Shown here: piece by piece, positions 1,517 to 21,650 of the stretch | Layout of the letters: each line of letters starts with the position of its first letter | How positions within the stretch are numbered: the stretch's first letter is position 1 | Assembly (NCBI GenBank): GCA_009773455.1 | Contig: WSXU01000030.1 | Location: forward strand, 1-55,168 | Reading direction: 5' to 3' | Source of the DNA: Bacteroidota bacterium | GTDB taxonomy: Bacteria; Bacteroidota; Bacteroidia; Bacteroidales; Lentimicrobiaceae | DNA length: 55,168 nt | Made by a program: the position numbers and the translations under genes | Notes under the pieces: generated by a model | Seen by the model: the letters and a program-made list of their open reading frames with translations, nothing else | The model's database searches: none | What the model was told of the DNA's origin: nothing

Positions 1517-2290
1517 ATGTTAGAAATAATCAATGAACTGATCAGTATTGAAAAGAACCGGATTCCGGCTGTGCTTTGTATTGTAACGGCAACCACCGGG
1601 TCGACGCCACGAAAGGCAGGGTCTAAAATGATTGTATTTCAGGATGGTACTTGCAGAGGGACCATTGGAGGGGGCAGCATCGAATTCCAGGTCATCAGGG
1701 AGGCACAGTCACTGATAAGTTCCGGTGGCAATATACAGGTCAGGAACTTTAAATTGCTCGAGGACCTGAATATGCAATGCGGAGGATCAATGGAGATTTA
1801 TTTTGAGCCCATTGCCTGTCAGCCAAAGTTGTACATATTTGGTGGAGGACACATAGGAAAGGCTTTGGCAGGGTATGCAACCGGTCTGGGATTTCATCCT
1901 GTGGTGATCGATCCCCGCCAGGGCATATTTGATGACTGGAACCTGTTTGCAGGTGAATTGATGAGTGGTGATTATCTTGATATGGCCGCTTCCCTTGATT
2001 TTAATGACAATACCTATATTGTTATTGTTACCCATCAGCATGAATCGGATGAGAAGTTGCTCCATTATTGCGCCCTGAAGGAATTTGCCTATCTGGGCAT
2101 GATCGGTAGCAAAAGAAAAGTCGGGGAAATCAGCAAGCGGGCCATCGAGACAGGAAAACTTACAGCTGAAATTCTTTCCGGAATAGACATGCCGATCGGA
2201 ATTCCTTTTGCAGCTGAAACACCTGCTGAAATAGCCATCAGTATCATTGCAAAAATGATTGATGTTAAAAATACCAGGAAAAAATCATGA
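1517..2290 (+). CDS. xdhC: XdhC/CoxI family molybdenum-hydroxylase maturation factor
   Basis: 257 residues. XdhC-type proteins bind molybdenum cofactor, help its sulfuration and insert it into xanthine dehydrogenase. The N-terminal half has the family signatures 'TGSTPRKAGSKM' and 'GTIGGGSIE' followed by 'MQCGGSMEIYFEP'. The C-terminal half is a Rossmann domain beginning 'LYIFGGGHIGKAL' (about residues 107-119), then 'THQHESDEKLL' and 'YLGMIGSKRK'. The gene overlaps the next start by 4 bp (ATGA at 2287-2290), so it is translationally coupled to the dehydrogenase subunits. In E. coli the related accessory genes of selenium-type hydroxylases are yqeB and yqeC; this is the only member of that kind I see in the window. 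Confidence 0.9.
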   Translation: MLEIINELISIEKNRIPAVLCIVTATTGSTPRKAGSKMIVFQDGTCRGTIGGGSIEFQVIREAQSLISSGGNIQVRNFKLLEDLNMQCGGSMEIYFEPIACQPKLYIFGGGHIGKALAGYATGLGFHPVVIDPRQGIFDDWNLFAGELMSGDYLDMAASLDFNDNTYIVIVTHQHESDEKLLHYCALKEFAYLGMIGSKRKVGEISKRAIETGKLTAEILSGIDMPIGIPFAAETPAEIAISIIAKMIDVKNTRKKS

Positions 2291-3733
2291 AAGGCAATGT
2301 TATAAGGTTTTTGCTTAACGAGAAGTTAATTGAACTTGATTTCAGCCTTTTTCCTGAACTCAAACCAACCACCACAGTCCTGAATTACCTCCGGTCCCCT
2401 GCCATTTCATAAAGGTGTCAAAGAGGGTTGTGCCGAAGGCGATTGTGGTGCCTGTACAGTGGTTGTTGCGGAAAATGTTGAAGGGAATCTTATCTATAGA
2501 ACCATCGATAGCTGCCTGGTTTTTCTTCCGATGCTCCATGGGAAACAGCTGATCACTGTTGAACACCTGGCCGATGGTGACAAACTCCATCCGGTTCAAC
2601 AGGCGATGGTTGACCGGAACGGAAGTCAATGCGGCTACTGTACGCCGGGTATCGTCATGTCATTGTTCGGATTATATAAGAATCACAGTAATCCCTCAAT
2701 GGACAGCATTGAAGATTCTCTTACAGGAAATCTATGCCGCTGCACAGGTTACCGGCCGATCATCGATGCGGCAGGTATTGCCTGTCAGGGAGGTGAACAG
2801 GATAAGTTTGCAGCCTCAGCACCCGGAATCGTTTCCAGACTGATTGAAATTACAAAAGATAAAACACCGGTCGGTATTTTAACCTCGCAACAAAAGTATC
2901 TGAAACCTTTGACGCTGACCGATGCCCTGCGTTTCAGAAAAGATTATCCGGAAGCCATTGTTGTGAGTGGTGCAACAGACATCGCCCTGCGTCAGACGAA
3001 GAAAAAGGAGCTGCTGAAAGAAATCATTGATCTTTCTGATGTTCAGGAATTGAAATATTTCAGGGAGGAACCGGATTATTTTCAGGTGGGTTCCGGCTAT
3101 CCGATCGAATCACTGAGAATGGCATCGGATGGAAAAATACCGGCATTAAAAAAGATGCTGGATATTTTTGGCTCACTTCAAATTAGAAACCTGGCAACTC
3201 TTGGAGGTAACATTGGCTCCGCCTCTCCGATCGGTGATACACTTCCATTCCTTATAGCCTGTAATGCTCAGGTTGAACTTAAGTCAACAAATGTAGTAAG
3301 ACGATGTAGCATTGAGGATTTCATCATTGGGTATCGCTCTGTTGATCTGTTTCCTGACGAATTAATTACTACTGTCTTTATTCCAAAGCCCACTCCAGGA
3401 GAATTCATAAGATCCTACAAGGTTTCAAGACGGAAAAACCTTGATATTTCAACAGTAAGCGCTGGTTTTTACCTTCTATCCGAAAACGGGACAACCACCG
3501 ATATCAGACTGGTTTTCGGTGGTATGGCAGCTCAACCCATCAGGGCTTTAAAGACAGAAAAGTTTCTGCGGGGTAAACCCTGGACTGATAAGAATGTGCA
3601 TGATGCTATGCAAATTCTTATCAGTGAGTTTACTCCACTGAGCGATGCCCGTGCCAATGCCGGTTACCGTAACCTGGTTGCCCGGAATCTGTTGCTTAAA
3701 TTCTTTGAAGAATCGAAAGGGCAGCCATCATGA
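2287..3733 (+). pseudogene. xdhA: Xanthine dehydrogenase 2Fe-2S/FAD subunit, frameshifted near its 5' end
   Basis: Translation from ATG 2287 gives a proper ferredoxin-like start (MKGNVIRFLLNEKLIELDF) but stops at 2410-2412. The +1 frame then continues without a break to 3733. Removing one C from the CCCC run at 2396-2399 joins them through 'NYLRSLPFHKGVKEGC', as expected for the family. The rejoined protein (about 481 residues) has the plant-type cluster CAEGDCGAC, the second cluster CGYC...CRC and then an FAD-binding domain with 'SGATDIALR' and 'RNLATLGGNIGSASPIGD'. It overlaps xdhC and xdhB by 4 bp each. If the shift is real, the intact part could only start near GTG 2459, losing the first iron-sulfur ligands and probably activity. 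A homopolymer sequencing error is the main alternative. Confidence 0.85.
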
Positions 3734-6039
3734 TACACGATAACCTGAAACACGACAGCGCACATAAACATGTTACCGGGAAGTCGGTCTATGTGAATGA
3801 CATGGATGTCAGCCCGTTGCAGCTTGCGGGTAGGGTTGTTTACAGCCCACTGGCACATGCAAGGATCAAATCGGTTGATTTTGCCGATGCGCTAAGGGTG
3901 CAAGGGGTTGCTTCGATTCTTTCAGCCGCGGATATTCCCGGAGCTAACCAGATGGGTCCGGTCATTCACGACGAACCCTGTCTGGCTGAAGCAGAAGTCA
4001 ACTTTATAGGTCAGGCGGTGCTGTTGATTGCTGCAGAGACGGATGAAATTGCCATAGAAGCAGAAAGCCTGATCCGGATTGAATATGAGGAAATGGAGGC
4101 TGTGCTTTCGCTGCGCGAAGCCATAGATAAGAATCTTCTGATTGCTCCTGTTCGATTTATAATCAGTGGCAATGCTGATGAAGCTTTGTTCAATGCCCCT
4201 TACCGGCTCGAAGGAGAGCTTGAAACAGGTGCCCAGGAACACTGGTACCTCGAAACCCAGTCTGCTCTGGCGGTACCCGGCGAAGGGAATGAAATGCTTG
4301 TTCATGCTTCGAGTCAGAACCCGGCTGAAACGCAGGCCATCGTAGCCGAAGTGCTGGGGATTTCCAAAAATGAGGTCGATGTTGAGGTCAGACGGATGGG
4401 TGGAGCCTTTGGTGGAAAGGAAACCCAGGCCAATCATGTGGCTGCATGGGCCGCTTTGCTGGCCAATGCAACAAAAAGACCTGTAAAAATCCACCTTTTC
4501 CGCGACGATGATCAGAAGATTACAGGAAAGCGGCACCGCTTTCTTTCAAAATATGCGATAGGCTTTGATAAGTCAGGGAAAATACTCGCATACAAAGTTG
4601 AGCTCAACAGTGATGCTGGTTCATCAACCGATCTGAGCCGCGCTATCCTGGAAAGGGCTATGTTTCATGCTGAAAATGCCTGTTACATTCCCGATATCAG
4701 TATAACCGGCAAAGCGTTCAGAACAAACCTTCCTTCCAATACGGCGTTCCGGGGATTCGGCGGGCCTCAGGGAATGGCCGTGATTGAACAGGCCATCGAC
4801 AAGGTTGCCAGGTTCCTGAGGAAAGATCCGGCAGAGATTCGAAAAATCAATTTTTACGGGATTGGTTCAGAAAATCGGACACCATATGGCAAAGTAGTTG
4901 AAAACAACCGCCTGCATGTGATGTTTGACAGGCTGATGGCTTCGTCCGACTATATGAAAAGACGTGCGGAAACCGATGCATTCAATGGCCTGAACCGGTT
5001 TATTAAAAAGGGGTTGGCGATCACTCCTGTAAAGTTCGGAATTTCATTTACAACTGCTTTTCTCAACCAGGCCGGGGCATTGGTGAATATTTATAAAGAC
5101 GGTACTGTCCTGGTTAATCATGGTGGTACCGAAATGGGACAAGGACTTTATACAAAAATCCATGGAGTTGCTTCGGCAGAACTGGGCATTGGTCCTGAAT
5201 TTATTAAGGTAACTCCTACAAATACATCCAAAGTTCCGAATACCTCTGCAACAGCGGCATCTTCAGGCAGTGACCTTAACGGGATGGCGGTTAAAGCAGC
5301 CATTGACACGTTAAAGTCCCGGCTGGTTCCTGTTGCCTGCACTGAATTACAGAAAGCCGGATTGAACAGGCCTGATCCTGATAAAATCGTCTTTATTGAA
5401 AATAAAGTCTTTCAGGCCGGTGAACCCGGTGTAAAGATTCCCTTTGACCAATTGATACAGTCAGCCTATCTGGCGCAGGTCAGCCTGAGTGCAACCGGTT
5501 TCTACAAAACCCCTGGTATCCACTTTGACAGGGATGCAGGCAAAGGAAACCCATTTTACTATTATGCCTATGGAATGGCAGTTTCAGAAGTCAGCGTGGA
5601 TGTGCTGACCGGTGAATATAAACTGCTCAGAACAGATATTCTGCATGACGTCGGTGATTCGCTCAACGAAGACATTGATATCGGTCAGATTGAAGGAGGA
5701 TTTATACAGGGCGTCGGATGGTGCTCCACGGAGGAGATCAAATGGGATAACAAGGGCAGGTTATTGACCCATTCACCCGATACCTACAAGATTCCAACAG
5801 TGAATGACATTCCGGGTGATTTCAGGGTTGAACTGCTGAAAGATTACCCCAATGAAGGCACAATCCGCAAGAGCAAAGCTGTTGGAGAGCCGCCGTTTAT
5901 GCTGGCATTTTCGGTATGGTTAGCCATCAAGGATGCTATCTCGGCAGTGGGTAACCACGAAGTTGAACCTGAATTCTCCCTGCCCGCTACCGCGGAAGTG
6001 GTTTTGATGAGTATCGAGAAAGTAAAAAGTAAGGAGTAA
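3730..6039 (+). CDS. xdhB: Xanthine dehydrogenase molybdopterin-binding subunit
   Basis: 769 residues, the usual size of the large subunit in two-component bacterial xanthine dehydrogenases. It hydroxylates hypoxanthine/xanthine at the Mo site and passes electrons to the 2Fe-2S/FAD partner encoded just upstream. Motifs in order: 'RRMGGAFGGKETQ' (the Glu corresponds to substrate-binding Glu802 of bovine xanthine oxidase), 'NTAFRGFGGPQ' (Arg equivalent to Arg880), 'GGTEMGQGLYTK', and 'SKAVGEPPFMLA' with the catalytic Glu of the GEPP motif. All key residues are present, so this is a true xanthine dehydrogenase by motif. The last codons (KVKSKE, stop) lie inside a 7-bp repeat, so the extreme C-terminus looks repeat-derived. 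Confidence 0.93.
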   Translation: MIHDNLKHDSAHKHVTGKSVYVNDMDVSPLQLAGRVVYSPLAHARIKSVDFADALRVQGVASILSAADIPGANQMGPVIHDEPCLAEAEVNFIGQAVLLIAAETDEIAIEAESLIRIEYEEMEAVLSLREAIDKNLLIAPVRFIISGNADEALFNAPYRLEGELETGAQEHWYLETQSALAVPGEGNEMLVHASSQNPAETQAIVAEVLGISKNEVDVEVRRMGGAFGGKETQANHVAAWAALLANATKRPVKIHLFRDDDQKITGKRHRFLSKYAIGFDKSGKILAYKVELNSDAGSSTDLSRAILERAMFHAENACYIPDISITGKAFRTNLPSNTAFRGFGGPQGMAVIEQAIDKVARFLRKDPAEIRKINFYGIGSENRTPYGKVVENNRLHVMFDRLMASSDYMKRRAETDAFNGLNRFIKKGLAITPVKFGISFTTAFLNQAGALVNIYKDGTVLVNHGGTEMGQGLYTKIHGVASAELGIGPEFIKVTPTNTSKVPNTSATAASSGSDLNGMAVKAAIDTLKSRLVPVACTELQKAGLNRPDPDKIVFIENKVFQAGEPGVKIPFDQLIQSAYLAQVSLSATGFYKTPGIHFDRDAGKGNPFYYYAYGMAVSEVSVDVLTGEYKLLRTDILHDVGDSLNEDIDIGQIEGGFIQGVGWCSTEEIKWDNKGRLLTHSPDTYKIPTVNDIPGDFRVELLKDYPNEGTIRKSKAVGEPPFMLAFSVWLAIKDAISAVGNHEVEPEFSLPATAEVVLMSIEKVKSKE

Positions 6040-6046: not shown

Positions 6047-6149
6047 TACCTGCCGGTTTCCATTGTTTACAGAATAGTCATCGGATTGATAATCTGTATT
6101 ACAGGATCAGGTTGGATGCAATCGGAACAACATTTAATCAAAATAAAGA

Positions 6150-7337
6150 ATGAACGAAATTTTTGAAAAAATCAATGCATTGTCCCACAAATACAGGGAT
6201 TATACTGCGCAAAACCTGTCGAAACTTATACAGATCAAATCGACAAGCATGTTTGAAAAGGAGGTTCAGCTGGAGCTTAAACGCCAGATGGAAGAGGCCG
6301 GTTTCGATGAAGTACGCATCGACGGACTCGGAAATGTGATCGGACGGATAGGAAACGGAAAAAGAATCCTGGCCATTGACGGGCATATGGATACCGTTGA
6401 TGTGGGAAATGCCGCCAACTGGACCTTTGACCCTTTCAGCGGGGAGATTAAAGATGGCTTTGTTCATGGCCGGGGAACCGTTGACCAGAAAGGCGGTCCG
6501 GCAGCAGCCGTCACAAGTGGCAGGATATTGAAGGAACTCGGCTTTGACAGGGATCTGACCATTCTGGTCGTAGGCAGTGTGATGGAAGAAGACTGCGATG
6601 GTTTGTGCTGGAAATATATTGTAGAAGAAGAGGGCATCCGTCCCGATTTTGCGATCAGCACCGAACCCACTAACCTCAACATTTATCGTGGTCACCGTGG
6701 CAGGATGGAAATCCTTGTCCGTTTCAACGGCATCTCCTGTCATGGAAGTGCACCGGAGCGCGGAAAGAACGCCATTTATGCAGCCGCCCGTGCAGCCCTG
6801 GAGGTTGAGAAACTGAACGAACGTCTTCCTTTTGATGAATTTCTGGGAAAGGGCAGCATCACCATTTCAGAGATTAAATCAGGAAGTCCCTCATTGTGTG
6901 CCGTAGCCGATTATGCCCAGTTCCACCTCGACCGGCGTCTGACCTGGGGTGAGACCAAAGAATCGGCCTTAGCTGAGATTCAGGAAATCATCAAAGATAT
7001 GGATGCCTCGGTTGAAGTGCTTCATTACGATGAAGTTGCCTACACCGGACTGAAGTATGGTATGGAGAAGTATTATCCCACCTGGAAAATTCCGGCAGAT
7101 CATAAAGTCGTAACCACCGGAGTGGAAGCATTTACAGGACTCTTTGGTAAAGATCCGATCGTGGATAAATGGACATTCTCAACCAATGGTGTAACCATCA
7201 ACGGGTATTATGGCATCCCCATCATCGGCTTTGGCCCGGGAAATGAAGTGATGGCACATGCCCCGAACGAAAAAGTGAGAATCGACGATCTTGAAGTGGC
7301 GGCAGCATTCTATGCGGCTTATGCTTATTTAATTTAA
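6150..7337 (+). CDS. ygeY: YgeY family selenium-metabolism-linked M20 hydrolase
   Basis: 395 residues, matching the YgeY family of zinc amidohydrolases/peptidases that co-occur with selenium-dependent molybdenum hydroxylases. M20 metal motifs: 'IDGHMDTVDVG' (His, Asp), 'GRGTVDQKGG' (bridging Asp), 'VMEEDCDG' (catalytic Glu pair), 'ISTEPTN' and, near the end, 'VMAHAPNEKV' (metal His). It should cleave an amide or carbamoyl intermediate produced after purine ring opening; the exact substrate cannot be read from the sequence. It follows xdhB by 110 bp and precedes ygeW by 77 bp in the same direction, so it is probably in the xdhCAB-ygeYW transcript. Confidence 0.92.
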   Translation: MNEIFEKINALSHKYRDYTAQNLSKLIQIKSTSMFEKEVQLELKRQMEEAGFDEVRIDGLGNVIGRIGNGKRILAIDGHMDTVDVGNAANWTFDPFSGEIKDGFVHGRGTVDQKGGPAAAVTSGRILKELGFDRDLTILVVGSVMEEDCDGLCWKYIVEEEGIRPDFAISTEPTNLNIYRGHRGRMEILVRFNGISCHGSAPERGKNAIYAAARAALEVEKLNERLPFDEFLGKGSITISEIKSGSPSLCAVADYAQFHLDRRLTWGETKESALAEIQEIIKDMDASVEVLHYDEVAYTGLKYGMEKYYPTWKIPADHKVVTTGVEAFTGLFGKDPIVDKWTFSTNGVTINGYYGIPIIGFGPGNEVMAHAPNEKVRIDDLEVAAAFYAAYAYLI

Positions 7338-7414: not shown

Positions 7415-8602
7415 ATGTCAAATTTTACTCAACTGATTGAAGAACTTAAGAAATTAAAGTCAGGCCTTTTTGAAAAGGATTTCCTGCTTACCTGGGACAA
7501 AACCGAAGATGAACTCAGGCAGACCCTGCTGGTGGCTGAGGCCCTGAAACACCTGCGCGACCACAATATTTCAGCGAAGGTGTTCGACTCTGGCCTGGCC
7601 ATTTCAAATTTCAGGGACAATTCAACCCGTACCCGCTTCTCGTTTGCTTCGGCCTGCAACCTTCTGGGGCTCGAAGTGCAGGATCTTGACGAAACAAAAT
7701 CGCAGATCGCCCACGGTGAAACCGTTCGCGAAACGGCCAATATGATCAGCTTCCTTACCGATGTCATTGGCATCCGCGACGATATGTTCCTGGGCGAAGG
7801 CCATACCTATATGAAGGAAGTCGGCGATGCCCTCGACGATGGTTTTCAGCATGCCGTACTGCCTCAACGCCCCGGTATCGTCAACCTTCAGTGCGACATC
7901 GACCATCCGACACAATCCATGGCCGATCTGCTGCACCTCGTCAATTATTATGGCGGACTTGAGAACCTGAAAGGAAAGAAAATCGCCATGACCTGGGCCT
8001 ATTCGCCAAGTTATGGAAAGCCGCTTTCAGTGCCACAGGGGATCATCGGCCTGATGACCCGTTTCGGTATGGAGGTTGACCTGGCTTATCCGGAAGGTTA
8101 CACGCTTATTCCTGAAGTTGTTGAAATGGCTGGTAAACAGGCCTCTGCATCGGGAGGGAAGTTTCGTGTAGTGAACAGCATGGACGAAGCCTTTGCCAAT
8201 GCCGATATCGTTTATCCCAAAAGCTGGGCACCCTTTGCCGTCATGCAACAGCGTACCCAACTGCTGAAAACCTATGACAAGGATGGCCTTAAAGCCCTTG
8301 AACAGCAATGCCTTTCGAATAACGCCCGTTTTAAAGATTGGGAATGCACCGAAGAAAAGATGAAACTCACCAAAGGCGGAAAAGCCCTGTATATGCATTG
8401 CCTTCCGGCCGATATTTCAGATGTTTCCTGTAAAGAGGGCGAAGTAGCTGCCAGCGTGTTTGAGCGCTACCGCATCGAAACCTACAAGGAAGCAGGTTAC
8501 AAACCTTACATTATTGCTGCGATGATACTGAACAATAAGTTCAGCAATGCGGCAGAGATGCTGGAAAACCTTTATAAAGCAGGGAAGAAAAGGGTATTGT
8601 AA
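7415..8602 (+). CDS. ygeW: Knotted carbamoyltransferase YgeW
   Basis: 395 residues, the usual YgeW length (longer than ornithine carbamoyltransferase). Carbamoyl-phosphate site 'DNSTRTRFSF' (STRTR), then 'QIAHGETVRETANMIS', the 'DHPTQSMADL' motif and the 'MHCLPADIS' loop. This enzyme family sits in purine and allantoin-type degradation clusters and is thought to act phosphorolytically, releasing carbamoyl phosphate that a carbamate kinase could turn into ATP. No carbamate kinase gene lies in this window. ygeW is the last rightward gene before the convergent hyuA operon; a nested hairpin separates the two. Confidence 0.94.
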   Translation: MSNFTQLIEELKKLKSGLFEKDFLLTWDKTEDELRQTLLVAEALKHLRDHNISAKVFDSGLAISNFRDNSTRTRFSFASACNLLGLEVQDLDETKSQIAHGETVRETANMISFLTDVIGIRDDMFLGEGHTYMKEVGDALDDGFQHAVLPQRPGIVNLQCDIDHPTQSMADLLHLVNYYGGLENLKGKKIAMTWAYSPSYGKPLSVPQGIIGLMTRFGMEVDLAYPEGYTLIPEVVEMAGKQASASGGKFRVVNSMDEAFANADIVYPKSWAPFAVMQQRTQLLKTYDKDGLKALEQQCLSNNARFKDWECTEEKMKLTKGGKALYMHCLPADISDVSCKEGEVAASVFERYRIETYKEAGYKPYIIAAMILNNKFSNAAEMLENLYKAGKKRVL

Positions 8603-10001: not shown

Positions 10002-10048
10002 AACTGAGTTTAATTTCAATGGTTAAGATACGCTTTCCGGCATTGATT

Positions 10049-10675: not shown

Positions 10676-10696
10676 TAAAACCGGGTTTTTTATCTC

Positions 10697-10719
10697 ACGC
10701 AAGGACGCGAGGACGCAAT
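10697..10719. repeat. 8-bp GACGCAAG-type tandem repeat
   Basis: Three near-identical 8-bp units (ACGCAAGG, ACGCGAGG, ACGCAATG) in the leader of the YgjV-like gene, about 22 bp upstream of its start codon. Confidence 0.6.
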
Positions 10720-12224: not shown

Positions 12225-14786
12225 TTATCTCTCTCGGTCAATTGGTAACTTGTACCTCCTGATTCCATCAAATGCCCAGATCGCGTTCGCTACCGCAGCG
12301 GCTGTAGGCACCAGCCCTATTTCTCCGAGTCCTTTCGCACCATAGGGCCCGACCGGATCTTTAACTTCGACCCCCAACACCACAATTTCCGGCATATCCT
12401 TTGCCCGGAGAATCTTCAGATCACGCATCTTCGACGAAACAAGCTGCCCGTCAACCATCGGCAGATCTTCCGACAGGGCATAACCCAGACCCATATGTAC
12501 TGCTCCCTCAATCTGACCCTCAAACATCACAGGGTTCATGATTTTTCCGGCATCATGGGCTGCATATACGGTTTCAATTTCGCCCGAGTCGTTGAGAACC
12601 ACGAGTTGGGTGGCATAGCCATAGGCAAAATGGGTGATGATTTCCTTCACCTCTGCGCCGGGTTTTGTGGTCAGGTCGTAGGAATAATTCCCTTTGTATG
12701 TTTTGCCTGAAAGTTCTTTCAACGAATGGCTTTTAAGGTCTTCACGGATTTTTTTCGAAGCATCAAGGATGGCATTGCCCAGCAAGGCTGTTGCCCTTGA
12801 TGAGGTTGTCATTCCAGTCGGGATTCCGGCACTGCTGTCAACAGTTACTTCAACAAATTCAGGATGAATGCCGGTTTCTTCAAAAAGCACCTGCTGGGCT
12901 ATGGTGTGCACACCCTGTCCCATTTCAGTCCAGCCATGCTGCAGATGCACCTTGTTCTCAGAGATAATGCTGATGATCACATCACTGTAATCAGCCATGC
13001 CGTTTCCCACACCGCTGTTCTTGATGCCGCAGGCCAGCCCTTTAATCCGGGATTTGTCATAGTATGGTTTAACTGCCTCGAGAGTAGCCCTGACACCAAC
13101 CCCTCCTTTCAGCACCTGTCCTGTAGCCGTCATTCTGCCTTCAGTCAGGGCATTCTCGTACCGGAACTGCCAGCGGTCAAAGCCTCCCTGATCGCAGAGG
13201 TCGTCGATACAGCCTTCAAGGGCAAAGCAAACCTGGTTGGCCCCGAATCCCCGCATAGCTCCGCTTGGGATATTATTGGTATAGACTGTTAACGCCTCAA
13301 GGTTCACGCAGGGGAAATGATAGGCACCGGTTGCATGTCCGGCCACCCTTTCCATCACCTTGGTACCGACCGAGGCATAAGCACCCGAATCTCCGACAGC
13401 ATAAAGCTTCAGCCCTGTAAGTTTTCCGTTTTTGTCGCAACCTACGGCAATATCCATATACACAGGGTGCCGTTTCGGATGCATGCGGATGGATTCTTCC
13501 CGGTTCAGCACCACTTTCACAGGTTGTTTCAATACCCGGGCAAACAGGGAAGCATGCCCCTGAACCGTCATGTCCTCTTTTCCACCAAAACCACCACCGG
13601 TAGAAACCAGCGTTACCCTCACCTTTTCCTCCGGAATTCCCAGCAGGGATGCTACCTGCCTGCGGTCAACATAGATGCCCTGCCCGTTTGAATACAAATG
13701 AACCCCATCGCCATCAGGCATAGCCACTGCCCCTTCCGTTTCAAGGAATGCGTGTTCGATCCGCTGGGTCCTGTAGATGCCTTTTGCAACAAAATCAGAG
13801 CCATTCAGCACTTGTTCAGCATCTCCACCACGGTATACCCTGCAGGTCTCCAGCAGATTTTCACGATCGGGATGAACTTTAGGCGAATCCGCTTTAATGG
13901 CTTCGTGGGGATCGATAACCGGGTCAAGTACTTCATAGGTAACTTCAATAAGTGCAGCAGCTTTTCTGGCAGTTTCATCTGTTTCTGCGACAACACCTGC
14001 CAGCACATCACCGATATAACGGGTAGTTTCACCCGGGCCGATCATCAACGGCCAGTCTTTAAAGATCAGTCCGACATAGCGGTCACCCGGAACATCTCCC
14101 GAAGTAAAAATCCTGATAACACCTTTAACCTGCAGCGCTTTACTGATGTTAATCTCCCTGATCATGGCCCTGGGATGGTCGGTAAAACGCAGGGCGCCGT
14201 AAAGCATTCCTTCAAATTGAAGGTCATTCACAAACTTTCTTTTACCAACAGCCATCTCATAGGCCTCATACTTAGGATACGAGGCACCAACCTTTCCTGA
14301 AACAGCTTTTATTTCGGACGTATGTTCCGCATGCAACCGGTTGGCCGCATCAGCAATGGCATCAACGATTTTAACATAGCCGGTGCACCGGCATAAATTC
14401 AGGGTAAGTGCCTTTTTGATATCATCCCGGGAGGGCTGAGGGTTTTTCTGAAGCAGAATCTTCGTTCGCATCAGAAATCCTGGCGTACAGAAGCCGCATT
14501 GAACAGCCCCTTTATCTACAAAGGCTTTGGCCAGTACATCCCTGATATTGTCCGGAATTCCTTCAAGGGTGTTGATGACTGCATTATCAAGTTTACCAAT
14601 TGTTGTCATGCACGACAGCTTTGCCTCCCCGTTGATCTCAACCAGGCAGGCCCCGCAGGCTCCCTGGCAGGAGCAGCCATCCTTTACCGAGGTAATCCCT
14701 TTCTCATTCCTCAGCAAATGCAACAGTCTTGTTTCCTGATTGCCTTTATAACTGACGGGTTTTCCATTCAGATTAAAGTGTATCAT
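12225..14786 (-). CDS. xdhD: Selenium-dependent-type xanthine dehydrogenase (2Fe-2S plus Mo domain)
   Basis: 853 residues in one chain: a 2Fe-2S domain (CSCQGACGAC about residues 38-47, then CGFC and CRC about 97-133) followed by a molybdopterin domain from about residue 165. Mo motifs: 'STGGGFGGKEDM', 'PSGAMRGFGANQ', 'GWTEMGQGVHT' and 'GAKGLGEIGLVPT' in place of the GEPP loop of classic xanthine dehydrogenase. There is no FAD domain, so electrons must leave through a separate partner; YgfK, encoded upstream, is the obvious candidate. In characterised relatives selenium is a labile cofactor at Mo and not selenocysteine, and I see no in-frame UGA. The gene starts 6 bp after the threonine-synthase-like stop, so the two are cotranscribed. 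Confidence 0.92.
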   Translation of the reverse strand: MIHFNLNGKPVSYKGNQETRLLHLLRNEKGITSVKDGCSCQGACGACLVEINGEAKLSCMTTIGKLDNAVINTLEGIPDNIRDVLAKAFVDKGAVQCGFCTPGFLMRTKILLQKNPQPSRDDIKKALTLNLCRCTGYVKIVDAIADAANRLHAEHTSEIKAVSGKVGASYPKYEAYEMAVGKRKFVNDLQFEGMLYGALRFTDHPRAMIREINISKALQVKGVIRIFTSGDVPGDRYVGLIFKDWPLMIGPGETTRYIGDVLAGVVAETDETARKAAALIEVTYEVLDPVIDPHEAIKADSPKVHPDRENLLETCRVYRGGDAEQVLNGSDFVAKGIYRTQRIEHAFLETEGAVAMPDGDGVHLYSNGQGIYVDRRQVASLLGIPEEKVRVTLVSTGGGFGGKEDMTVQGHASLFARVLKQPVKVVLNREESIRMHPKRHPVYMDIAVGCDKNGKLTGLKLYAVGDSGAYASVGTKVMERVAGHATGAYHFPCVNLEALTVYTNNIPSGAMRGFGANQVCFALEGCIDDLCDQGGFDRWQFRYENALTEGRMTATGQVLKGGVGVRATLEAVKPYYDKSRIKGLACGIKNSGVGNGMADYSDVIISIISENKVHLQHGWTEMGQGVHTIAQQVLFEETGIHPEFVEVTVDSSAGIPTGMTTSSRATALLGNAILDASKKIREDLKSHSLKELSGKTYKGNYSYDLTTKPGAEVKEIITHFAYGYATQLVVLNDSGEIETVYAAHDAGKIMNPVMFEGQIEGAVHMGLGYALSEDLPMVDGQLVSSKMRDLKILRAKDMPEIVVLGVEVKDPVGPYGAKGLGEIGLVPTAAAVANAIWAFDGIRRYKLPIDRER

Positions 14787-14792
14787 AATTGT

Positions 14793-16031
14793 TCAGATTT
14801 TACCTTTCAGGAATGATTCTACAGCAGCCATTTCAGGTCTGACAGGAGCCGAAATATTCAGCACAGGCTGAACTGCATTCAGGTCTTTCAGTCCGCTGCC
14901 GGTGAGCAGAACAACATTCACCGATTTACCTGGCAAACGATTCTGCCCCGAATAGGCTTCATATCCCGCAAAGGCCGCTGCTGCGGCAGGTTCAGCAAAT
15001 ATGCCTGTATTTTTTGCCAGTGTTGTTGAAGCTTTAATGATTTCGGCATCAGATACTTTAATGGTTTCTCCCTGATATTTCAGAAGATAACCTGCTGCCA
15101 TCCGGAAATTCCTGGGGATATCAACCGAAATGCTGTCGGCAATGGTATGCGAAGCGGATGCCTTAAAAGGACTCATACCCAGATTGTTGATGATGTTGCT
15201 GCTCCCTTCAGCCTGAACCGCTACAATGACAGGCATCCGGTCAATCAGACCCATTGTGAGAAGGTCCTCAAAACCTTTGTAAACACCGGATATGATTACC
15301 CCGTCACCAACCGGCACAAATATCCTGTCGGGCAGGCTTTGGTTCAGTTGACTATAGAGTTCCAGCGATACTGTTTTCTTTCCTTCGATGGTCAACGGGT
15401 TGTAAGCCGTATTCCGGTTATACCAGCCGAATCGTTTTGTTGCCTGAATACTCAGGTCAAAGGCGGCATCGTAATTACCGTCAACCGGGACCAGCGCGGC
15501 TCCATACATGAGAATCTGCGTAAGTTTCGCTTTGGGTGCAGCAGCCGGGACAAAGATCACAGCCTTCTGCCCCTGGGCGGCACACATGCCTGCCAGGGAT
15601 GAGCCGGCATTCCCCGTTGAAGCAGCCACTATGGTATCAATACCGTTTTCCCTGGCAAATGCAGAAACTATGGCAGAAGCCCGGTCTTTAAAAGAAAAAG
15701 TCGGGTTTTGTGAATCATCTTTCAGATAAAGCAGGTGCTCCTGACGTTTCCCATCGAGCCGGTCTATCCTGTAAAGCGGGGTATTTCCGACTTTCAGATT
15801 GGGCAGGCTACCCGGATCTTCGATAGGTAAGATGTCAAGAAAATGGTTTTGTTCCAGTGCTTCAAACGACCTGCCTGTTAGCAGTTCCGGATTATAAACC
15901 ACCTTGAGAATGCCCAGTGGAGGTTGATCTGCCACCTGTTTGTTACTGCATTCAGGACAAACATAGATTACACCGCTTCCGGGATAAGATTTCCCGCAGT
16001 CATGGCATTGGTAGGTGAATTTGGTAAACAT
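14793..16031 (-). CDS. Threonine-synthase-like PLP enzyme with zinc ribbon
   Basis: 412 residues. The N-terminus has a zinc ribbon (Cys9, Cys12, Cys25, Cys28). The catalytic part is fold-type II PLP: 'NPTFSFKDRASA' with the PLP Lys at about residue 115, 'AASTGNAGSSLAG' phosphate loop and 'VVLLTGSGLKDL' near the end. By motif it would be threonine synthase (L-threonine from O-phosphohomoserine). Its position, 6 bp before xdhD and inside a purine cluster with no other threonine genes, suggests instead a role on a downstream amino-acid product. That is inference. Confidence 0.82.
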   Translation of the reverse strand: MFTKFTYQCHDCGKSYPGSGVIYVCPECSNKQVADQPPLGILKVVYNPELLTGRSFEALEQNHFLDILPIEDPGSLPNLKVGNTPLYRIDRLDGKRQEHLLYLKDDSQNPTFSFKDRASAIVSAFARENGIDTIVAASTGNAGSSLAGMCAAQGQKAVIFVPAAAPKAKLTQILMYGAALVPVDGNYDAAFDLSIQATKRFGWYNRNTAYNPLTIEGKKTVSLELYSQLNQSLPDRIFVPVGDGVIISGVYKGFEDLLTMGLIDRMPVIVAVQAEGSSNIINNLGMSPFKASASHTIADSISVDIPRNFRMAAGYLLKYQGETIKVSDAEIIKASTTLAKNTGIFAEPAAAAAFAGYEAYSGQNRLPGKSVNVVLLTGSGLKDLNAVQPVLNISAPVRPEMAAVESFLKGKI

Positions 16032-16044
16032 GTTCAGGTAATTA

Positions 16045-16169
16045 CGATTTACGGTTTACGGTTTACGGTTTACGATTGACCATGACGATTTACGAATAAA
16101 TAATCTTTAATCCGAAATCCGAAATCCGAAATTGGAAATTAGACATTAGACATTAGACATTAGACATTA
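16045..16169. repeat. Three consecutive short-period arrays ending in a stop codon
   Basis: The gap between the two PLP genes is nearly all repeats: GTTTACG units (about 16047-16076), TCCGAAA units of period 8 (about 16111-16132) and TTAGACAT units of period 8, four copies (about 16139-16169). The stop codon of the leftward PLP gene (16167-16169) is formed by the last unit. I see no terminator or promoter in the gap. Confidence 0.8.
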
Positions 16170-17645
16170 AAGTCTCTTCAACACTCCGGTTTCCTCATTA
16201 AACTCATCGATCATCCCATCCCATCTTGCTGCCTGGTTGAACTGATCATCCCACAGGTTACGGTCGTACCACAACTGGTTCAGGTCTTCAATTTCCTTGG
16301 CCTGTTGTTCAACCCAGGTAAAATATTTAAGGTTATGAATCGCCTTACGGTCATAGTAGCCGAGTTCCTTCAGGTTGTCGGTTCCCTGTCCCATGATACA
16401 TTTCTCCATATCTTTTGCCGACTGAAGTGAAGTGTAGCCGCCCTTTTCTGCTGTCAGTTCCTCCAGCCTTGACTGATACATTTCGGCTGAATCGGTGGCG
16501 AGGGTGAAAATCATATCATCGCCGGTCATTTCATAATATTTTGCTGCTTTGATGGCTGAAAGCATATTGGAAACCCCTGAAATACCAAGCAGTTGTAACC
16601 GATCAATCAATGACTGATCTATGCCGCATGATTTCAGGCAGGCATGCCCTTCAGGTTCATTGAAAAGCCTGAATACCCGCATACAATCTTCATCATCGAT
16701 GGCCGTGATCATGTCGGTGTTTTTTGCATTGTGCACCCAGGGTACATGTTTGTCGCCAATGCCCTCGATGCGGTGGCCACCAAACCCGTTGTTGAGCAGT
16801 GTAGGGCATTGCAGGGCTTCCGAAGCCACAATCTTCATCTGCGGATACTGCTTTTTCAGGTAGTCGCCTGCCCCGATGGTACCTGCAGAACCCGTGGCTG
16901 AAACATAGGCGGCAAGACGACCTTCGGTAGATTTCAGTGATAGAAACACCTCTTCGATTGCAGGGGCGGTGACATTGTAATGCCAGGTTGGGTTTCCGAA
17001 TTCATCAAACTGATTGAAGATCACACAATCGGGCCTGTTTCGGCGGATGTCCCAGCATTTGTCGTAGATTTCCTTCACGTTCGACTCACAACCCGGTGTG
17101 GCAATCACTTCGGCGCCAATCTCCCTGAGCCATGAAAAACGCTCTTTGCTCATCTCTTCAGGCAGGATGGCTACGGCTGTTACACCCATCAGGTAGGAAT
17201 CAAATGCTCCGCCGCGGCAATAATTACCGGTTGAAGGCCATACAGCCTTATGGAAAGTCGGGTCAAATTCCCCGGTAAGGATACGTGGTGCCAGGCATCC
17301 ATAGGCAGCACCTACCTTGTGCGCCCCTGTAGGGAAATATTTGCCAATCAGCAGGACTATTCTTGCTTTAACGCCGGTTAGTGCCTCAGGGAGTTCGAGA
17401 TAATTTACCGGACCAAACTGACCACCCTTTTCAACAGGTTCATTTTTCCAGGTGATCCTGAACAGGTTGGCAGGGTGAAGTTCCCATAATCCAATGTTTT
17501 TAAGACTTTCTTTAATTTTTTCAGGAACAAGGTCCGGGTTTCGCATCTGTGCAAAAGTAGGCAGTACAATGCCCTTTTCCCGGAAACGTTCAATGGCTTT
17601 CTGCCTTACAGCAGGGTTAACAATGTGGTTGATGGTTGAGATCAT
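16167..17645 (-). CDS. Fold-type II PLP-dependent lyase of the purine cluster
   Basis: 492 residues. PLP lysine in 'GKYFPTGAHKVGAAYG' (Lys110), phosphate-binding loop 'WPSTGNYCRGGAF' and a Gly-rich 'SATGSAGTIGAGDYL' segment. It is a cysteine-synthase-superfamily enzyme much longer than YgeX diaminopropionate ammonia-lyase (about 400 residues) and does not share its sequence landmarks. By position (between the threonine-synthase-like gene and ygfK) it is the best candidate to replace YgeX by cleaving a 2,3-diaminopropionate-type or related amino-acid intermediate. Reaction not established. The upstream ygfK stop is 46 bp away on the same strand. Confidence 0.8.
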   Translation of the reverse strand: MISTINHIVNPAVRQKAIERFREKGIVLPTFAQMRNPDLVPEKIKESLKNIGLWELHPANLFRITWKNEPVEKGGQFGPVNYLELPEALTGVKARIVLLIGKYFPTGAHKVGAAYGCLAPRILTGEFDPTFHKAVWPSTGNYCRGGAFDSYLMGVTAVAILPEEMSKERFSWLREIGAEVIATPGCESNVKEIYDKCWDIRRNRPDCVIFNQFDEFGNPTWHYNVTAPAIEEVFLSLKSTEGRLAAYVSATGSAGTIGAGDYLKKQYPQMKIVASEALQCPTLLNNGFGGHRIEGIGDKHVPWVHNAKNTDMITAIDDEDCMRVFRLFNEPEGHACLKSCGIDQSLIDRLQLLGISGVSNMLSAIKAAKYYEMTGDDMIFTLATDSAEMYQSRLEELTAEKGGYTSLQSAKDMEKCIMGQGTDNLKELGYYDRKAIHNLKYFTWVEQQAKEIEDLNQLWYDRNLWDDQFNQAARWDGMIDEFNEETGVLKRL

Positions 17646-17691
17646 TTGAAAGAGTTTATAATAAAAAAAAGTGTGTTTTCAGGGAGATGCT

Positions 17692-20600
17692 TTATTTGAG
17701 AGCTAAATGACAAACCAGTGATGACCCGCCAAAAGTATCAATCAGAAATTTCATCTCAGCAGCTTTGTCCAGGCTGATGACAGCTTTGCCGGAACCCGTC
17801 AGGTTATATTTTCCCGGTATAAAATCAGTATTGAAGATTACATCCGCTTTATGATTTGAGAAATGATATCCTCCGGGGATTTTTTTCAGGAAGCTGACCA
17901 GTTCTCCCGAACGGTGTTTCAGCGTAATTGAATCATCTTTGTTTTCAAGGATGTAACTGTTGTCGGTCTGCAGGAAGCTTTTTTCGGTCAGGCAAAACCT
18001 TGGCTTGTCACGGAACGGAGCACCTGAAGAAGGGCAGAAAGTGGTACAATTACCGCATTCGTTGCAGAAATCGGCAATATTGAGCACCTGGATTTTCTGA
18101 TCAATAGCAAGGGATCCGGTCTGGCTAAACTGTTCTCCCGGATTGCCGGGGTTTATCTGCCAAACAGGAATGCTTACCGCTTCAGCATTGTAATAGATAT
18201 TTGCCCTGTTCGGACATACCGTTACGCAGACATTGCACACCTCATCACACTGAAGACAACGGTCTGCTTCAGCCTGAGCCTCTTCCGGACTCAGTCTTAC
18301 CTGGAATCCTTCAATGGCAGGGTTCATGTGAATTCTTTCCGATTTTCGGATCATCAACGCCTTCGGGTCAATATCCTTATCCGAAACCAGTGTTTCTGAA
18401 AACAAGGCAATACCTGCTTTTTCGGCTATACGACGGGCGGTTTTCCTTCCATCGCCCACTGCTTTCACAATGGTTGCTGCCCCGCGAAGGGCATCTCCAC
18501 CGATAAAGACACCATCCAGTGAAGTTTCGTTTGAGTTGTCCCTTGTTTTAAGATCAGCGGGTTTGATAAAGTCAAGCTCGGTTTCCTGTCCGAGTGCAGG
18601 AATCAGGGTGTCCACCTGAAAATCGATCAGGACACCACTGGTCCTGACAGGCGTTGGCCGGCCGCCGGCCGCCGGCTTCTCAAGTTTCATCTTTGCACAG
18701 GAAAGAGAAACGACCCGGCCATCGATCACATTGATCTTTTCGGGAGAAAGCAATTCGCAGAGCTCAATATTTTCAGAGAGGAGTGCTTCAATTTCTTCGC
18801 GGTCGGCCGGCATTTCGGCCCGGGTTCTGCGGTACAGCACTTTTACTGACCCATTGTCCCCGACTAGTCGTCTGGCAGTACGGGCAACGTCCATGGCTGT
18901 GTTTCCTCCACCGATGACAAGAACATGGTGGCCAGGATCCAATGCTTTTCCTTTTTTCGCGTCTTTCAGGAATTCGAAGGCATTCAGCACTCCCGTGGAA
19001 TTTTCACCCTCCATCTCCAGCGATTTAAAACGCTGTGCACCGGCTGCGATATAAACAAAATCGAAATCCCTGCGCAGTTCGCCAAACCGCTGACGGTCAA
19101 CCTTCACATTAAAATGAATCTTCACACCCAGTTTCAGAATTCTGTCAACATCCCTGTCGAGTAGTGCCATTTTCATCCGGAAACCAGGGATGGCATCATA
19201 CACCATTCCCCCAACGGCATCTTTCGATTCGAATATTTCCACCGAAAATCCTGCCTGCCTGAGGAAAAAGGCACAGGCAAGGCCCGAAGGTCCGGCACCG
19301 ATGATGGCAACATTTTTTCCGTTGTCGGGAGCCGTACTTATCCCGGTCTCCCTGCCATTTTCAGCAATAAAAAGCTTGATGTCCCTGATTTTCAGCGGCT
19401 CGTCATAATTGACCCTGGTGCATTTCGTCTGGCAGTTGTGGTCGCAGGCAGAGCCCAGCACGTGGGGAAACGGATTTTTTGCCAGGATCACATCCAGGGC
19501 TTTCTGATAATTGCCGGCGGAAGTATAATAAAGGTATTGGGGGATGTCCTGGCTGGTCGGGCATTCATCGACACAAGGTGCATGAATACAGTCAAAGGGC
19601 CCGAGATGTCTGGCCGATTTGATGTTTTTGTTCAGGTAAGGATCGTTTTTGTAGGCTTCATAATTTACGACTGCATCCGCGTATTCATTCAGAAACTGCA
19701 ATTCGTTTTTTTTCGCCTCATCCTTCAAAATACCTATGTTTTCAATGTATTGGTGTAACCGCCCGTAGCCTCCGGGTTTGAGCAGATCGGAACATACGGT
19801 AACCGGTTTCAGTCCGCAACGGATAACGTCCGTAATATTGAAACAATCTGCACCTGCCGAGAATGAAACGGTTAGCTTACCCTGAAATTCGTTCTGGAGC
19901 TTTCTGGCAACATTGATGCTGATGGGGTGCAATGCCCGGCCGCTCATATACATCATCTGTTCATTCGCAGGAAAGATGTTCTTATGATTCAGACTTTCAA
20001 GGGTATTGGTAAGTTTTACACCGAATACCCTGCCTTCCTGATCTGCGGTTTGTTGCAGACGGGTAATGATCCCGATGGCATCGGCATATTTTAGATCGTG
20101 CTCAAAGGCAATGTCAGGAACAGTGGTTTTGAAGCCGAGTCTGTTGTTCAGGATATCGCGCAATGCTTCTTTCCCTAGCAGGGTAGGGTTGAGTTTCACA
20201 AACGTATGGAGTTTCTTTTCGCGGAGCAGGTAGTGCCCTATTTTCTCTATCTCTTCGGGAGGGCAACCGTGCATGGTACTCAGGGTGATGTTATCAGAAA
20301 TGCAATCCGGTATTTCAACTTCTGATATCTCCGGATAGAGTGGCTTCAGGGCCGATATCATCCTGGTTTTTTCCTGTCCGGCATGGCGCATCTTTTCCAG
20401 GAACCACTGTACATTTTCACGAAGAATACCATCGTAATTATAGCCGACACTCATGTTGAAAACAATACCGCTTTTTCCTTTATCCGGCCAGCCGAACCTG
20501 TGTTGAAGCAGGTGGATGATGATCCATGCTTTCAGGTACTCTTCAAAGGATTCGTGAATCCGAAGCTCCTGAGACCATTCGCAGTTATAACCCTCATCCT

Positions 20601-20913
20601 GCATGTCGATACAGGGTTTAGAAACTTCAAGCTCATCAAGGGTCTGAATGGTTTTGAGTTCAATATAGCTTGCCCCGCACAACCAGGCAGTGATGATGTT
20701 CTGGGCCATTTGTGAATGTGGCCCGGCTGCAACGCCCAGTGGCGTGTTCAGGTTCTGCCTGAATATATTCATTCCCGGAATGGTGGATTTTCCGGGCTTA
20801 AAAAACAGTGCTTCAGGGATGCCAAAGATTTCATTTCTGCCAGAATACTCGGAATCAATCAGGTAATATAATTTTTCAATGGGAATGGTTGAAAATGCAG
20901 CAGAATGGGCCAT
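17692..20913 (-). CDS. ygfK: YgfK family iron-sulfur flavoprotein (putative selenate reductase subunit)
   Basis: 1073 residues, close to the usual YgfK length. Order of parts: an N-terminal TIM-barrel dihydroorotate-dehydrogenase-like region (about 1-430); a GltD-like Cys-rich segment (IHAPCVDECPTSQD, then CDHNCQTKCTR); an FAD Rossmann motif 'IIGAGPSGLACAF' near 530; an NAD(P)H Rossmann motif 'VIGGGNTAMDVA'; and two C-terminal ferredoxin clusters (CLQCDEVCNVC..CP near 885 and CNECGNCTTFCP near 950). This layout moves electrons between NAD(P)H and an iron-sulfur partner. The name reflects E. coli selenate phenotypes, but in purine clusters it is more likely the electron-transfer partner or a reductase for xdhD products. 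First gene of the leftward operon. Confidence 0.93.
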   Translation of the reverse strand: MAHSAAFSTIPIEKLYYLIDSEYSGRNEIFGIPEALFFKPGKSTIPGMNIFRQNLNTPLGVAAGPHSQMAQNIITAWLCGASYIELKTIQTLDELEVSKPCIDMQDEGYNCEWSQELRIHESFEEYLKAWIIIHLLQHRFGWPDKGKSGIVFNMSVGYNYDGILRENVQWFLEKMRHAGQEKTRMISALKPLYPEISEVEIPDCISDNITLSTMHGCPPEEIEKIGHYLLREKKLHTFVKLNPTLLGKEALRDILNNRLGFKTTVPDIAFEHDLKYADAIGIITRLQQTADQEGRVFGVKLTNTLESLNHKNIFPANEQMMYMSGRALHPISINVARKLQNEFQGKLTVSFSAGADCFNITDVIRCGLKPVTVCSDLLKPGGYGRLHQYIENIGILKDEAKKNELQFLNEYADAVVNYEAYKNDPYLNKNIKSARHLGPFDCIHAPCVDECPTSQDIPQYLYYTSAGNYQKALDVILAKNPFPHVLGSACDHNCQTKCTRVNYDEPLKIRDIKLFIAENGRETGISTAPDNGKNVAIIGAGPSGLACAFFLRQAGFSVEIFESKDAVGGMVYDAIPGFRMKMALLDRDVDRILKLGVKIHFNVKVDRQRFGELRRDFDFVYIAAGAQRFKSLEMEGENSTGVLNAFEFLKDAKKGKALDPGHHVLVIGGGNTAMDVARTARRLVGDNGSVKVLYRRTRAEMPADREEIEALLSENIELCELLSPEKINVIDGRVVSLSCAKMKLEKPAAGGRPTPVRTSGVLIDFQVDTLIPALGQETELDFIKPADLKTRDNSNETSLDGVFIGGDALRGAATIVKAVGDGRKTARRIAEKAGIALFSETLVSDKDIDPKALMIRKSERIHMNPAIEGFQVRLSPEEAQAEADRCLQCDEVCNVCVTVCPNRANIYYNAEAVSIPVWQINPGNPGEQFSQTGSLAIDQKIQVLNIADFCNECGNCTTFCPSSGAPFRDKPRFCLTEKSFLQTDNSYILENKDDSITLKHRSGELVSFLKKIPGGYHFSNHKADVIFNTDFIPGKYNLTGSGKAVISLDKAAEMKFLIDTFGGSSLVCHLALK

Positions 20914-20948: not shown

Positions 20949-20964
20949 GAAAAAATTGTGGTGC

Positions 20965-21513
20965 ATGCGCTCATTTGCCCGTATATCCTGTATAATCCTG
21001 TCGGCTGGTCACTCTGGACGCATGGGAATACACAAGGCCCTGCTCCGGTTCGGGAAACAGGATATTACTTTTCTTGAGAAAATTGCGTTGTCCTATTTGG
21101 AAGCGGGGATCAGTGAGGTTGTGGTGGTGGTTGGCAGAGATCTGGATGAAATTGTCAGGCAAAACCACATTGAATTGCCCGTAAATGTCCGGTTTGTTGT
21201 GAATGAACATCCTGAACTTGGTCGTTTCTATTCGCTGGCAACCGGTTTGAAACAGGTTCAGGAAGGGAATTCCGCTTTTTTTCAGAGTATTGATAATCCA
21301 TTCGTAGATCCGGATCTTCTGGCTGAGATGAGTTTGGTTTTGGGAAAAGGGGAGGTTGTGTCGCCTGTATACCGTGGCAAAGCCGGTCACCCGGTATTGA
21401 TCAGCCATAATGTAAGTAAGGCTGTCGTTGACAAAATAAATTCAGGGCTCAGGATTGACCATTTTCTGGCTAACTTCAACAAAATTCATATCCTGACAGA
21501 AAACCAGAACTGA
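20965..21513 (+). CDS. mocA: MocA/YgfJ-type nucleotidyltransferase, C-terminus altered by a 17-bp duplication
   Basis: The ATG at 20965 gives MRSFARISCIILSAGHSGRMG, with the NTP-transferase signature LSAG.SGRMG. Also 'VVNEHPELGRFYSLATGL', 'SIDNPFVDPDLL' and 'GKAGHPVLIS', typical of molybdenum-cofactor cytidylyl/guanylyltransferase-like MocA/YgfJ proteins. The frame stops at 21511-21513. Immediately before, TGACAGAAAACCAGAAC (21494-21510) is repeated exactly at 21511-21527. Deleting one copy extends the frame to 21581 with the family-typical ending 'VNINSPEDYAQAFPE'. So the present protein lacks the last 17 residues; the catalytic core is intact. It may make the modified Mo cofactor used by the neighbouring hydroxylases. 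Confidence 0.88.
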   Translation: MRSFARISCIILSAGHSGRMGIHKALLRFGKQDITFLEKIALSYLEAGISEVVVVVGRDLDEIVRQNHIELPVNVRFVVNEHPELGRFYSLATGLKQVQEGNSAFFQSIDNPFVDPDLLAEMSLVLGKGEVVSPVYRGKAGHPVLISHNVSKAVVDKINSGLRIDHFLANFNKIHILTENQN

Positions 21514-21527
21514 CAGAAAACCAGAAC
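21494..21527. repeat. Perfect 17-bp tandem duplication disrupting the mocA 3' end
   Basis: Two identical 17-bp copies, 21494-21510 and 21511-21527. The length is not a multiple of three, and the junction itself creates the TGA stop that ends the mocA frame. Confidence 0.95.
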
Positions 21528-21650
21528 ATTCTTGTAAACATCAACTCACCGGAGGATTATGCACAGGCATTTCCAGAATAGGGGTAAACGGGACCGAAGT
21601 AGATATTTCAGGGATTGATTCGCCGGAAAGGACGCGGACTGACATAAAAA

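Follow-up and report, generated by a model that had tools for sequence, protein, structure and literature searches.

A Putative Second Ending of the Reductive Urate Pathway, with Two PLP Enzymes in Place of YgeX

The reductive pathway of urate breakdown (uricolysis) probably has a second ending, since many uricolytic bacteria lack its known last enzyme, the 2,3-diaminopropionate (DAP) ammonia-lyase YgeX, and carry in its place a fixed pair of other vitamin-B6 (pyridoxal phosphate, PLP) enzymes. The pair was studied in a contig of 55,168 nucleotides from a Bacteroidota bacterium of the Lentimicrobiaceae (WSXU01000030.1, assembly GCA_009773455.1), referred to here as the window. It comprises TSL, a threonine-synthase-like protein, and P492, a protein of 492 residues whose catalytic core and PLP lysine are of the cysteine synthase (CysK) or cystathionine β-synthase (CBS) type. 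A first-pass annotation of the window had placed both genes in an operon and had described a urate cluster with every member except ygeX, and both statements hold: TSL and P492 lie between the genes for XdhD and YgfK (Table 1), and XdhD, YgfK, HyuA, YgeW and YgeY exceed curated cut-offs, with SsnA recognized by its best model at a score under the cut-off. Co-occurrence, synteny and altered active-site residues support a variant ending at the level of sequence comparison.

The explanation that we favor, and judge fairly probable, is that the cluster encodes the known reductive pathway as far as DAP, and that the DAP-to-pyruvate end is taken over by two fold-type-II PLP enzymes, TSL and P492, in place of YgeX. 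TSL (or, elsewhere, a diverged group of YgeX proteins) would carry out the YgeX step, in which the β-amino group of DAP leaves as ammonia, and its invariant Asp243 would be placed where the cationic β-substituent sits. More tentatively, P492 may catalyze an obligatory PLP-dependent reaction of this three-carbon acid, ahead of TSL or together with it; the first guess is the inversion of D-DAP to L-DAP, and the main alternative is the β-elimination of a ureido group.

Co-occurrence of the Pair with Uricolysis Genes

TSL and P492 occupy an identical set of genomes: among 70 genomes searched for both proteins, 20 of them YgeW-positive, both were found in the same 11 and were absent from the other 59. 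Genomes were also chosen by YgeW. Six of a sample of 395 genomes of the phylum Bacteroidota exceeded the YgeW cut-off, including that of the window, and the other five all carry TSL and P492; YgeX exceeded its cut-off in none of these five, with a best match of 48 bits. The Clostridia contributed 15 YgeW-positive genomes out of 291, of which nine carry YgeX (TIGR01747 cut-off), four carry the pair (G480, G583, G611, and G779), none carries both, and two carry neither, the clusters of both of the latter running off contig ends. The centre genome G480 had entered the sample via P492. Thirty YgeW-negative Clostridia yielded no pair and one YgeX, and a search of 10 YgeX-positive Clostridia did not find the pair. 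In three of the four pair-bearing Clostridia, the pair lies amid YgeY, YgeW, XdhD or YgfK, a placement shared by YgeX in the three YgeX loci compared; the orders are TSL–YgeY–YgeW–P492 (G583), YgfK–YgeY–P492–TSL–XdhD (G611), and XdhD–TSL–P492–YgeY–YgfK (G779).

Among 59 relatives of the window genome, 18 encode full-length P492 orthologues (at least 58% identity), and 17 of these also encode full-length YgfK (16 over the cut-off, one with 826 of 835 bits), whereas neither full-length YgfK nor TSL was found in the 12 relatives without P492 that were tested. The order P492–TSL–XdhD–SsnA, often with YgfK adjoining, recurs in relatives and in named metagenome-assembled genomes (MAGs), which argues against a chance arrangement. 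The closest named P492 relatives of the window genome are Bacteroidales MAGs, one of them titled Lentimicrobium.

P492 relatives are encoded at no fewer than 592 places in a scan of named genomes. Among the best 80 of these at least 592 loci, on which the locus counts rest, at least one uricolytic marker is present in 49, TSL in 41 (26 of these with no more than 600 bp between TSL and P492), YgeX in two, and TSL together with YgeX in none. A P492 unrelated to purines was considered, as 31 of the 80 loci hold no marker, and was rejected: of 15 genomes searched for TSL whose P492 loci lack both a marker and TSL, 13 carry TSL elsewhere, a count that leaves out L095, which looks like G053. In nine of the 13, this TSL stands beside uricolytic genes (in G490 and G492 by low-identity matches), and in the remaining four (G464, G469, G470, and G486) it has no clear marker adjoining. 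The Pfam families of P492 neighbors in Elusimicrobia and Clostridia (polyA polymerase, FtsW, PGI and similar) gave no lead.

The pair is not peculiar to Bacteroidota, the phylum named in the first-pass annotation: MAGs that carry it have titles such as Clostridia, Elusimicrobia, Ignavibacteria, Planctomycetota, Chloroflexi, Cloacimonadota and Spirochaetes, and Acidobacteria stand with these and Bacteroidota among the titles of MAGs with P492 loci. The expectation that the pair would accompany YgeW and YgfK in genomes without YgeX was mostly borne out, and the comparisons describe a pair that goes together, belongs to uricolytic genomes and is never with YgeX in the Clostridia sampled.

Two of the 11 pair genomes (G090 and G110, loci L301 and L302, phylum Bacteroidota) are under the YgeW cut-off, YgeW being replaced by a diverged carbamoyltransferase (32–35% identity to YgeW); this gene is next to TSL and YgeY, TSL also abuts other cluster genes there, and the YgeX search did not include these two. 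In five Chloroflexi P492 loci (L128, L153, L155, L157, and L161), TSL is next to ATP-binding cassette (ABC) transporter genes, which in L155, the one of the five that was scanned, match two permeases, an ATPase and a substrate-binding protein of the BMP/PnrA type.

YgeX and Other PLP Enzymes in the Genome

YgeX was found neither in the window nor in the rest of the 4.8-Mb genome, which is 95.4% complete, so that a gap is possible; a ygeX elsewhere in the genome had been named by the first-pass annotation as one finding that would speak against its reading. The best match to TIGR03528 reaches 59 bits against a cut-off of 532, and its locus is that of IlvA. Eight proteins of the genome belong to PF00291, namely TSL, P492, IlvA, a BhcB-like dehydratase, a CysK-type enzyme, a TrpB-like enzyme, cysteate synthase and ThrC. 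With a separate ThrC present, the housekeeping threonine synthase is a protein other than TSL, and the separate CysK-type enzyme likewise means that P492 is not the sole cysteine-synthase-like enzyme. The cysteate synthase (locus L006, C20) exceeds its NCBIfam cut-off (468 bits versus 325), and may point to sulfonolipid synthesis.

TSL as a Candidate DAP Lyase

The structural model of TSL has a mean predicted local distance difference test score (pLDDT) of 92, and matches B. subtilis threonine synthase in Foldseek (6NMX, E 6.6e-30). The NCBIfam threonine synthase models disagree, TIGR00260 being passed and PRK08197 not (219 bits, cut-off 303). Active-site residues were compared in 69 TSLs and 11 other relatives, after the removal of exact duplicates and of four of the 41 TSLs from the P492 loci (one because it contains an X and three because their lengths fell outside the filter). 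Lys218 and Asp243 are present in 69 of 69 TSLs, and residue 214 is Thr, Leu, Met or Ser. The Arg and Asn kept by true threonine synthases, numbered R160 and N188 on the T. thermophilus chain, are both missing from every one of the 69, with Asp at the Asn site. At the three sites, Arg, Gln, and Asn are found in all four solved ThrC chains of the alignment and in five of the 11 other relatives, which were taken as true ThrC; two further relatives combine Arg with Lys and Gly, and the other four differ in other ways. The EGKK and GDG motifs also appear in seven further TSL loci, two of which belong to genomes included in the counts above. A tree of 38 of the 69 TSLs and the 11 other relatives places all 38 on one side of a branch (support 99/98), with the other relatives on the opposite side.

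We take R160 and N188 of T. thermophilus ThrC to be ligands of the substrate phosphate. TSL would be a re-purposed threonine synthase with a changed phosphate subsite (Arg to Thr, Leu, Met or Ser; Asn to Asp), and an invariant Asp in this pocket would suit a cationic leaving group, such as the β-ammonium of DAP. O-phosphohomoserine, put forward in the first-pass annotation as a substrate to assay, is an unlikely one, because TSL has lost these presumed phosphate ligands.

P492 as a Putative Obligatory Partner

All 60 P492 sequences compared share the PLP lysine, Lys110. The best Foldseek matches of the P492 model (pLDDT 92.7) are β-cyanoalanine synthase, CysK and CBS, and O-ureidoserine synthase is among the further matches; the alignment to the first three covers approximately 330 residues (query template modelling (TM) score 0.55, target TM score 0.83) and leaves the N- and C-terminal parts unmatched. 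Lys77 and Asp120 have been named as potential catalytic residues of YgeX (PMC4000059). The guess that P492 is a racemase comes from three points, namely that the pathway intermediates have been proposed to have the R configuration (commentary PMC12990295), that YgeX accepts both DAP isomers (PMC12507026), and that TSL has Thr at the position of the second base of YgeX, Asp120.

Which Enzyme Exchanges with YgeX

The search for TSL and for YgeX-like proteins, the latter counted from 249 bits upward, covered 44 distinct P492 genomes; the rows of G489/G287 and of G491/G152 were identical and were counted once, and one of the searches took 50 of the 80 loci, with 49 genomes searched and L120 left out. 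TSL is present in 35 of the 44. Five genomes with a YgeX-like protein have no TSL (G043, G456, G461, G462, and G466), and their YgeX-like proteins form a diverged group that clusters together in the tree (support 97/95), apart from canonical YgeX (98/97). One Bacteroidetes MAG has the order YgfK–P492–YgeX, where Bacteroidales mostly show YgfK–P492–TSL. This order, and the absence of TSL in five of the nine genomes with a YgeX-like protein, suggest that TSL and YgeX can stand in for each other, with P492 accompanying either TSL or a diverged YgeX. The first-pass reading that two PLP enzymes replace YgeX is partly supported by sequence: TSL swaps with a YgeX-like enzyme, but TSL and P492 are not equivalent, P492 standing beside a YgeX-like enzyme as well. 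P492 as a plain replacement of YgeX was rejected because of such loci (L102 and L105), and the idea that the YgeX partners of P492 had lost Asp120 was not borne out, all of them keeping TDGN. A third, outlying YgeX-like group (L258 and L178, of G473 and G476) occurs in genomes that have TSL and P492 as well.

Several observations weigh against the favored explanation. The pair is not strictly separate from YgeX: a YgeX-like protein is present in nine of the 44 P492 genomes, TSL being found in four of these nine versus 31 of the other 35, so that the view that the pair is not common beside YgeX holds for the YgeX-positive Clostridia and is qualified here by the nine genomes, of which five have the diverged form and no TSL. 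TSL, P492 and a YgeX-like protein occur together in G460, G473, G475, and G476, the YgeX-like proteins of G460 and G475 falling on the canonical side of the tree and those of G473 and G476 in the third group, and four genomes (G057, G467, G471, and G474) have neither TSL nor a YgeX-like protein. As 39 of the 44 genomes entered via P492 (all but five drawn on YgeW), they cannot reveal a TSL or a diverged YgeX without P492. The exclusion of YgeX and the pair in YgeW-positive Clostridia (Fisher p = 0.011; 0.027 without G480) ignores kinship, P492 and TSL of G480 are on different contigs, with TSL beside XdhD, YgfK, and SsnA, and the MAGs may be misbinned with respect to their titles. The NCBIfam thrC model TIGR00260, a loose one, accepts TSL (175 bits against a cut-off of 167), and the phosphate-ligand role of R160 and N188 is our assumption. 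The racemase idea fails to explain why P492 stands beside YgeX-like proteins that keep ATDGN, with Asp120.

Alternative Functions of the Pair

P492 itself could be the DAP ammonia-lyase (or an albizziin urea-lyase), with TSL as a helper that inverts or pre-processes the substrate. Its β-substituted-alanine-synthase core, with the fold matches named above, and its presence beside both TSL and the diverged YgeX group speak for this assignment, which we nevertheless consider unlikely: TSL is missing in five of the nine P492 genomes with a YgeX-like protein versus four of the 35 without one, although the loss of P492 beside YgeX would not be visible in genomes found mostly through P492, and TSL without P492 was not seen in the 70-genome sample. 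Quite unlikely is a diversion of DAP to a product other than pyruvate, for example through β-replacement to cysteine or another β-substituted alanine; both lineages perform β- or γ-replacement and two enzymes exceed the needs of a simple lyase, but no gene supplying an acceptor was recognized among the neighbors compared, with pathway genes as the only references and most other neighbors left unidentified. That TSL and P492 are ordinary biosynthetic enzymes (threonine synthase and cysteine synthase) placed in the cluster by chance agrees with the TSL fold, its TIGR00260 score and the cysteine synthase resemblance of P492, but is very improbable given the ThrC and CysK-type enzyme already in the genome, the tracking of uricolytic genomes by the pair, with 59 of 70 genomes and all 12 P492-less relatives lacking TSL, and the loss of the ThrC-diagnostic residues in all TSLs.

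With TSL as the lyase and P492 at a neighboring step, a broader proposal can be made, which we regard as possible but somewhat short of an even chance: a phylogenetically wide ending with a neofunctionalised threonine synthase as its DAP lyase, dependent on a cysteine-synthase-like partner, for example a DAP racemase. On this view, the pair may be the ending commonly used by lineages other than Pseudomonadota and some of the Clostridia.

Organization of the Window

The uricolytic cluster spans positions 1517–20913, with the genes from XdhC to YgeW on the plus strand and those from HyuA to YgfK on the minus strand (Table 1). The first-pass annotation had drawn it from 1517 to 21581; the start stands, and the end does not, as the cluster proper stops at 20913 and the remainder takes in the MobA/MocA-like gene. 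The spacers between XdhD, TSL, P492 and YgfK are 6, 135, and 46 bp, respectively. NCBIfam cut-offs are reached by YgeY, YgeW, HyuA, XdhB, XdhD and YgfK, and missed by SsnA, XdhA and XdhC; the position of SsnA is conserved in relatives. A Pfam search with the 217-residue protein gave no match.

Table 1. Genes of the uricolytic cluster and adjoining genes in the window.
Gene or product	Position	Strand	Basis
XdhC-family molybdoenzyme maturation factor	1517..2290	+	Pfam XdhC_C and XdhC_CoxI over cut-off; NCBIfam xdhC under cut-off
XdhA, xanthine dehydrogenase small subunit	2459..3733	+	TIGR02963 454.7 bits, cut-off 467; start of open reading frame at model position 49, N-terminal part in another frame
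XdhB, xanthine dehydrogenase molybdopterin subunit	3730..6039	+	TIGR02965 1044 bits, cut-off 849.5
YgeY, ureido hydrolase (yields DAP in known pathway)	6150..7337	+	NF009555 529 bits, cut-off 321
YgeW, carbamoyltransferase (ureido phosphorolysis)	7415..8602	+	NF005538 723 bits, cut-off 453; 71% identity to E. coli YgeW
HyuA, D-hydantoinase family	8682..10019	-	TIGR02033 508 bits, cut-off 393
217-residue protein of unknown family	10049..10702	-	62–86% identity in 7 Bacteroidales loci, close to SsnA and HyuA
SsnA aminohydrolase	10858..12123	-	Best model NF005540, 364 bits, under cut-off of 444; 33% identity to the E. coli protein
XdhD, selenium-dependent xanthine dehydrogenase family (urate to yanthine in known pathway)	12225..14786	-	TIGR03311 893 bits, cut-off 830
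TSL, threonine-synthase-like PLP enzyme, 412 residues, N-terminal Cys motif; proposed DAP ammonia-lyase	14793..16031	-	PALP 239 bits; threonine synthase fold; T214/K218/D243; groups apart from ThrC
P492, PLP enzyme, 492 residues, CysK/CBS-like core with N- and C-terminal extensions; putative obligatory partner	16167..17645	-	PALP 63 bits; K110; structural model; Foldseek
YgfK, yanthine reductase	17692..20913	-	TIGR03315 945 bits, cut-off 835
MobA/MocA-like molybdenum cofactor nucleotidyltransferase	20956..21513	+	PF12804 88 bits; 25% to E. coli MocA
NtrC-type sigma-54 response regulator, candidate regulator	22532..23878	-	40% over 327 residues to E. coli YgeV

In a three-frame view, the first part of XdhA, including the [2Fe–2S] region, is split over two frames upstream of the called start (2272–2640), which suggests a frameshift, either an assembly error or real. 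Three short, secreted-looking proteins flank the cluster, of which that at 53–625 is a DUF4402 protein, and those at 661–1464 and 21711–22130 (minus strand) look alike by eye and have no NCBIfam match. Beyond the regulator gene, citrate lyase α/β-type genes (CitF; HpcH/HpaI with an acyl carrier protein domain) occupy 24381–27249 on the minus strand.

Relation to Published Work and Known Systems

The reductive uricolytic pathway and its E. coli enzymes have been published (PMC12507026). No description of an ending with TSL and P492 was found in the literature searched, which mostly excluded subscription papers: the terms “threonine synthase” and “cysteine synthase” are absent from the main texts of PMC2276186, PMC4016543, PMC12542679 and PMC6615313, and “threonine” and “cysteine synthase” from the main text of PMC12507026. 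Bacteroidota is not among the six phyla listed in the network legend of PMC12507026, where PF00291 alone stands for YgeX, so that a TSL/P492 variant would be counted as YgeX and hidden by this marking. The detection rule for uric acid gene clusters given in PMC12542679 uses six markers including ygeX and may miss this ending. If the pair works as proposed, further lineages would be uricolytic, two new enzyme activities would be added, and the finding would bear on the stereochemistry question raised in the commentary PMC12990295.

Compared with the threonine synthases of B. subtilis (6CGQ/6NMX), A. aeolicus (2ZSJ) and T. thermophilus (1UIM), TSL has the same fold (target TM score 0.87–0.90), the PLP lysine and 31–32% identity, but the motifs R-x-EGQKT and VGN of these enzymes are T/L/M/S-x-EGKKT and VGDG in TSL. 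P492 shares its catalytic core with cysteine synthase, CBS and β-cyanoalanine synthase over about 310–355 aligned columns, and differs from them in its low identity (22–28%), in reaching 117.6 of the 350.95 bits of the equivalog cut-off, and in its extra N- and C-terminal parts. Both proteins belong with YgeX (TIGR03528/TIGR01747) to the PLP fold-type-II superfamily (PF00291) and take a similar place in the cluster, but neither exceeds the YgeX cut-off (TSL 38.7 bits to TIGR03528; P492 not listed), and the TDGN motif containing Asp120, present in 10 of 10 YgeX compared, is STGN in TSL and P492. Relative to the reductive uricolytic clusters of E. coli, C. difficile and C. sporogenes, as described in PMC12507026 and PMC12990295, the window has XdhD, YgfK, SsnA, HyuA, YgeW and YgeY likewise clustered, gives no match to the carbamate kinase YqeA, and differs at the end of the pathway, where TSL and P492 stand instead of YgeX.

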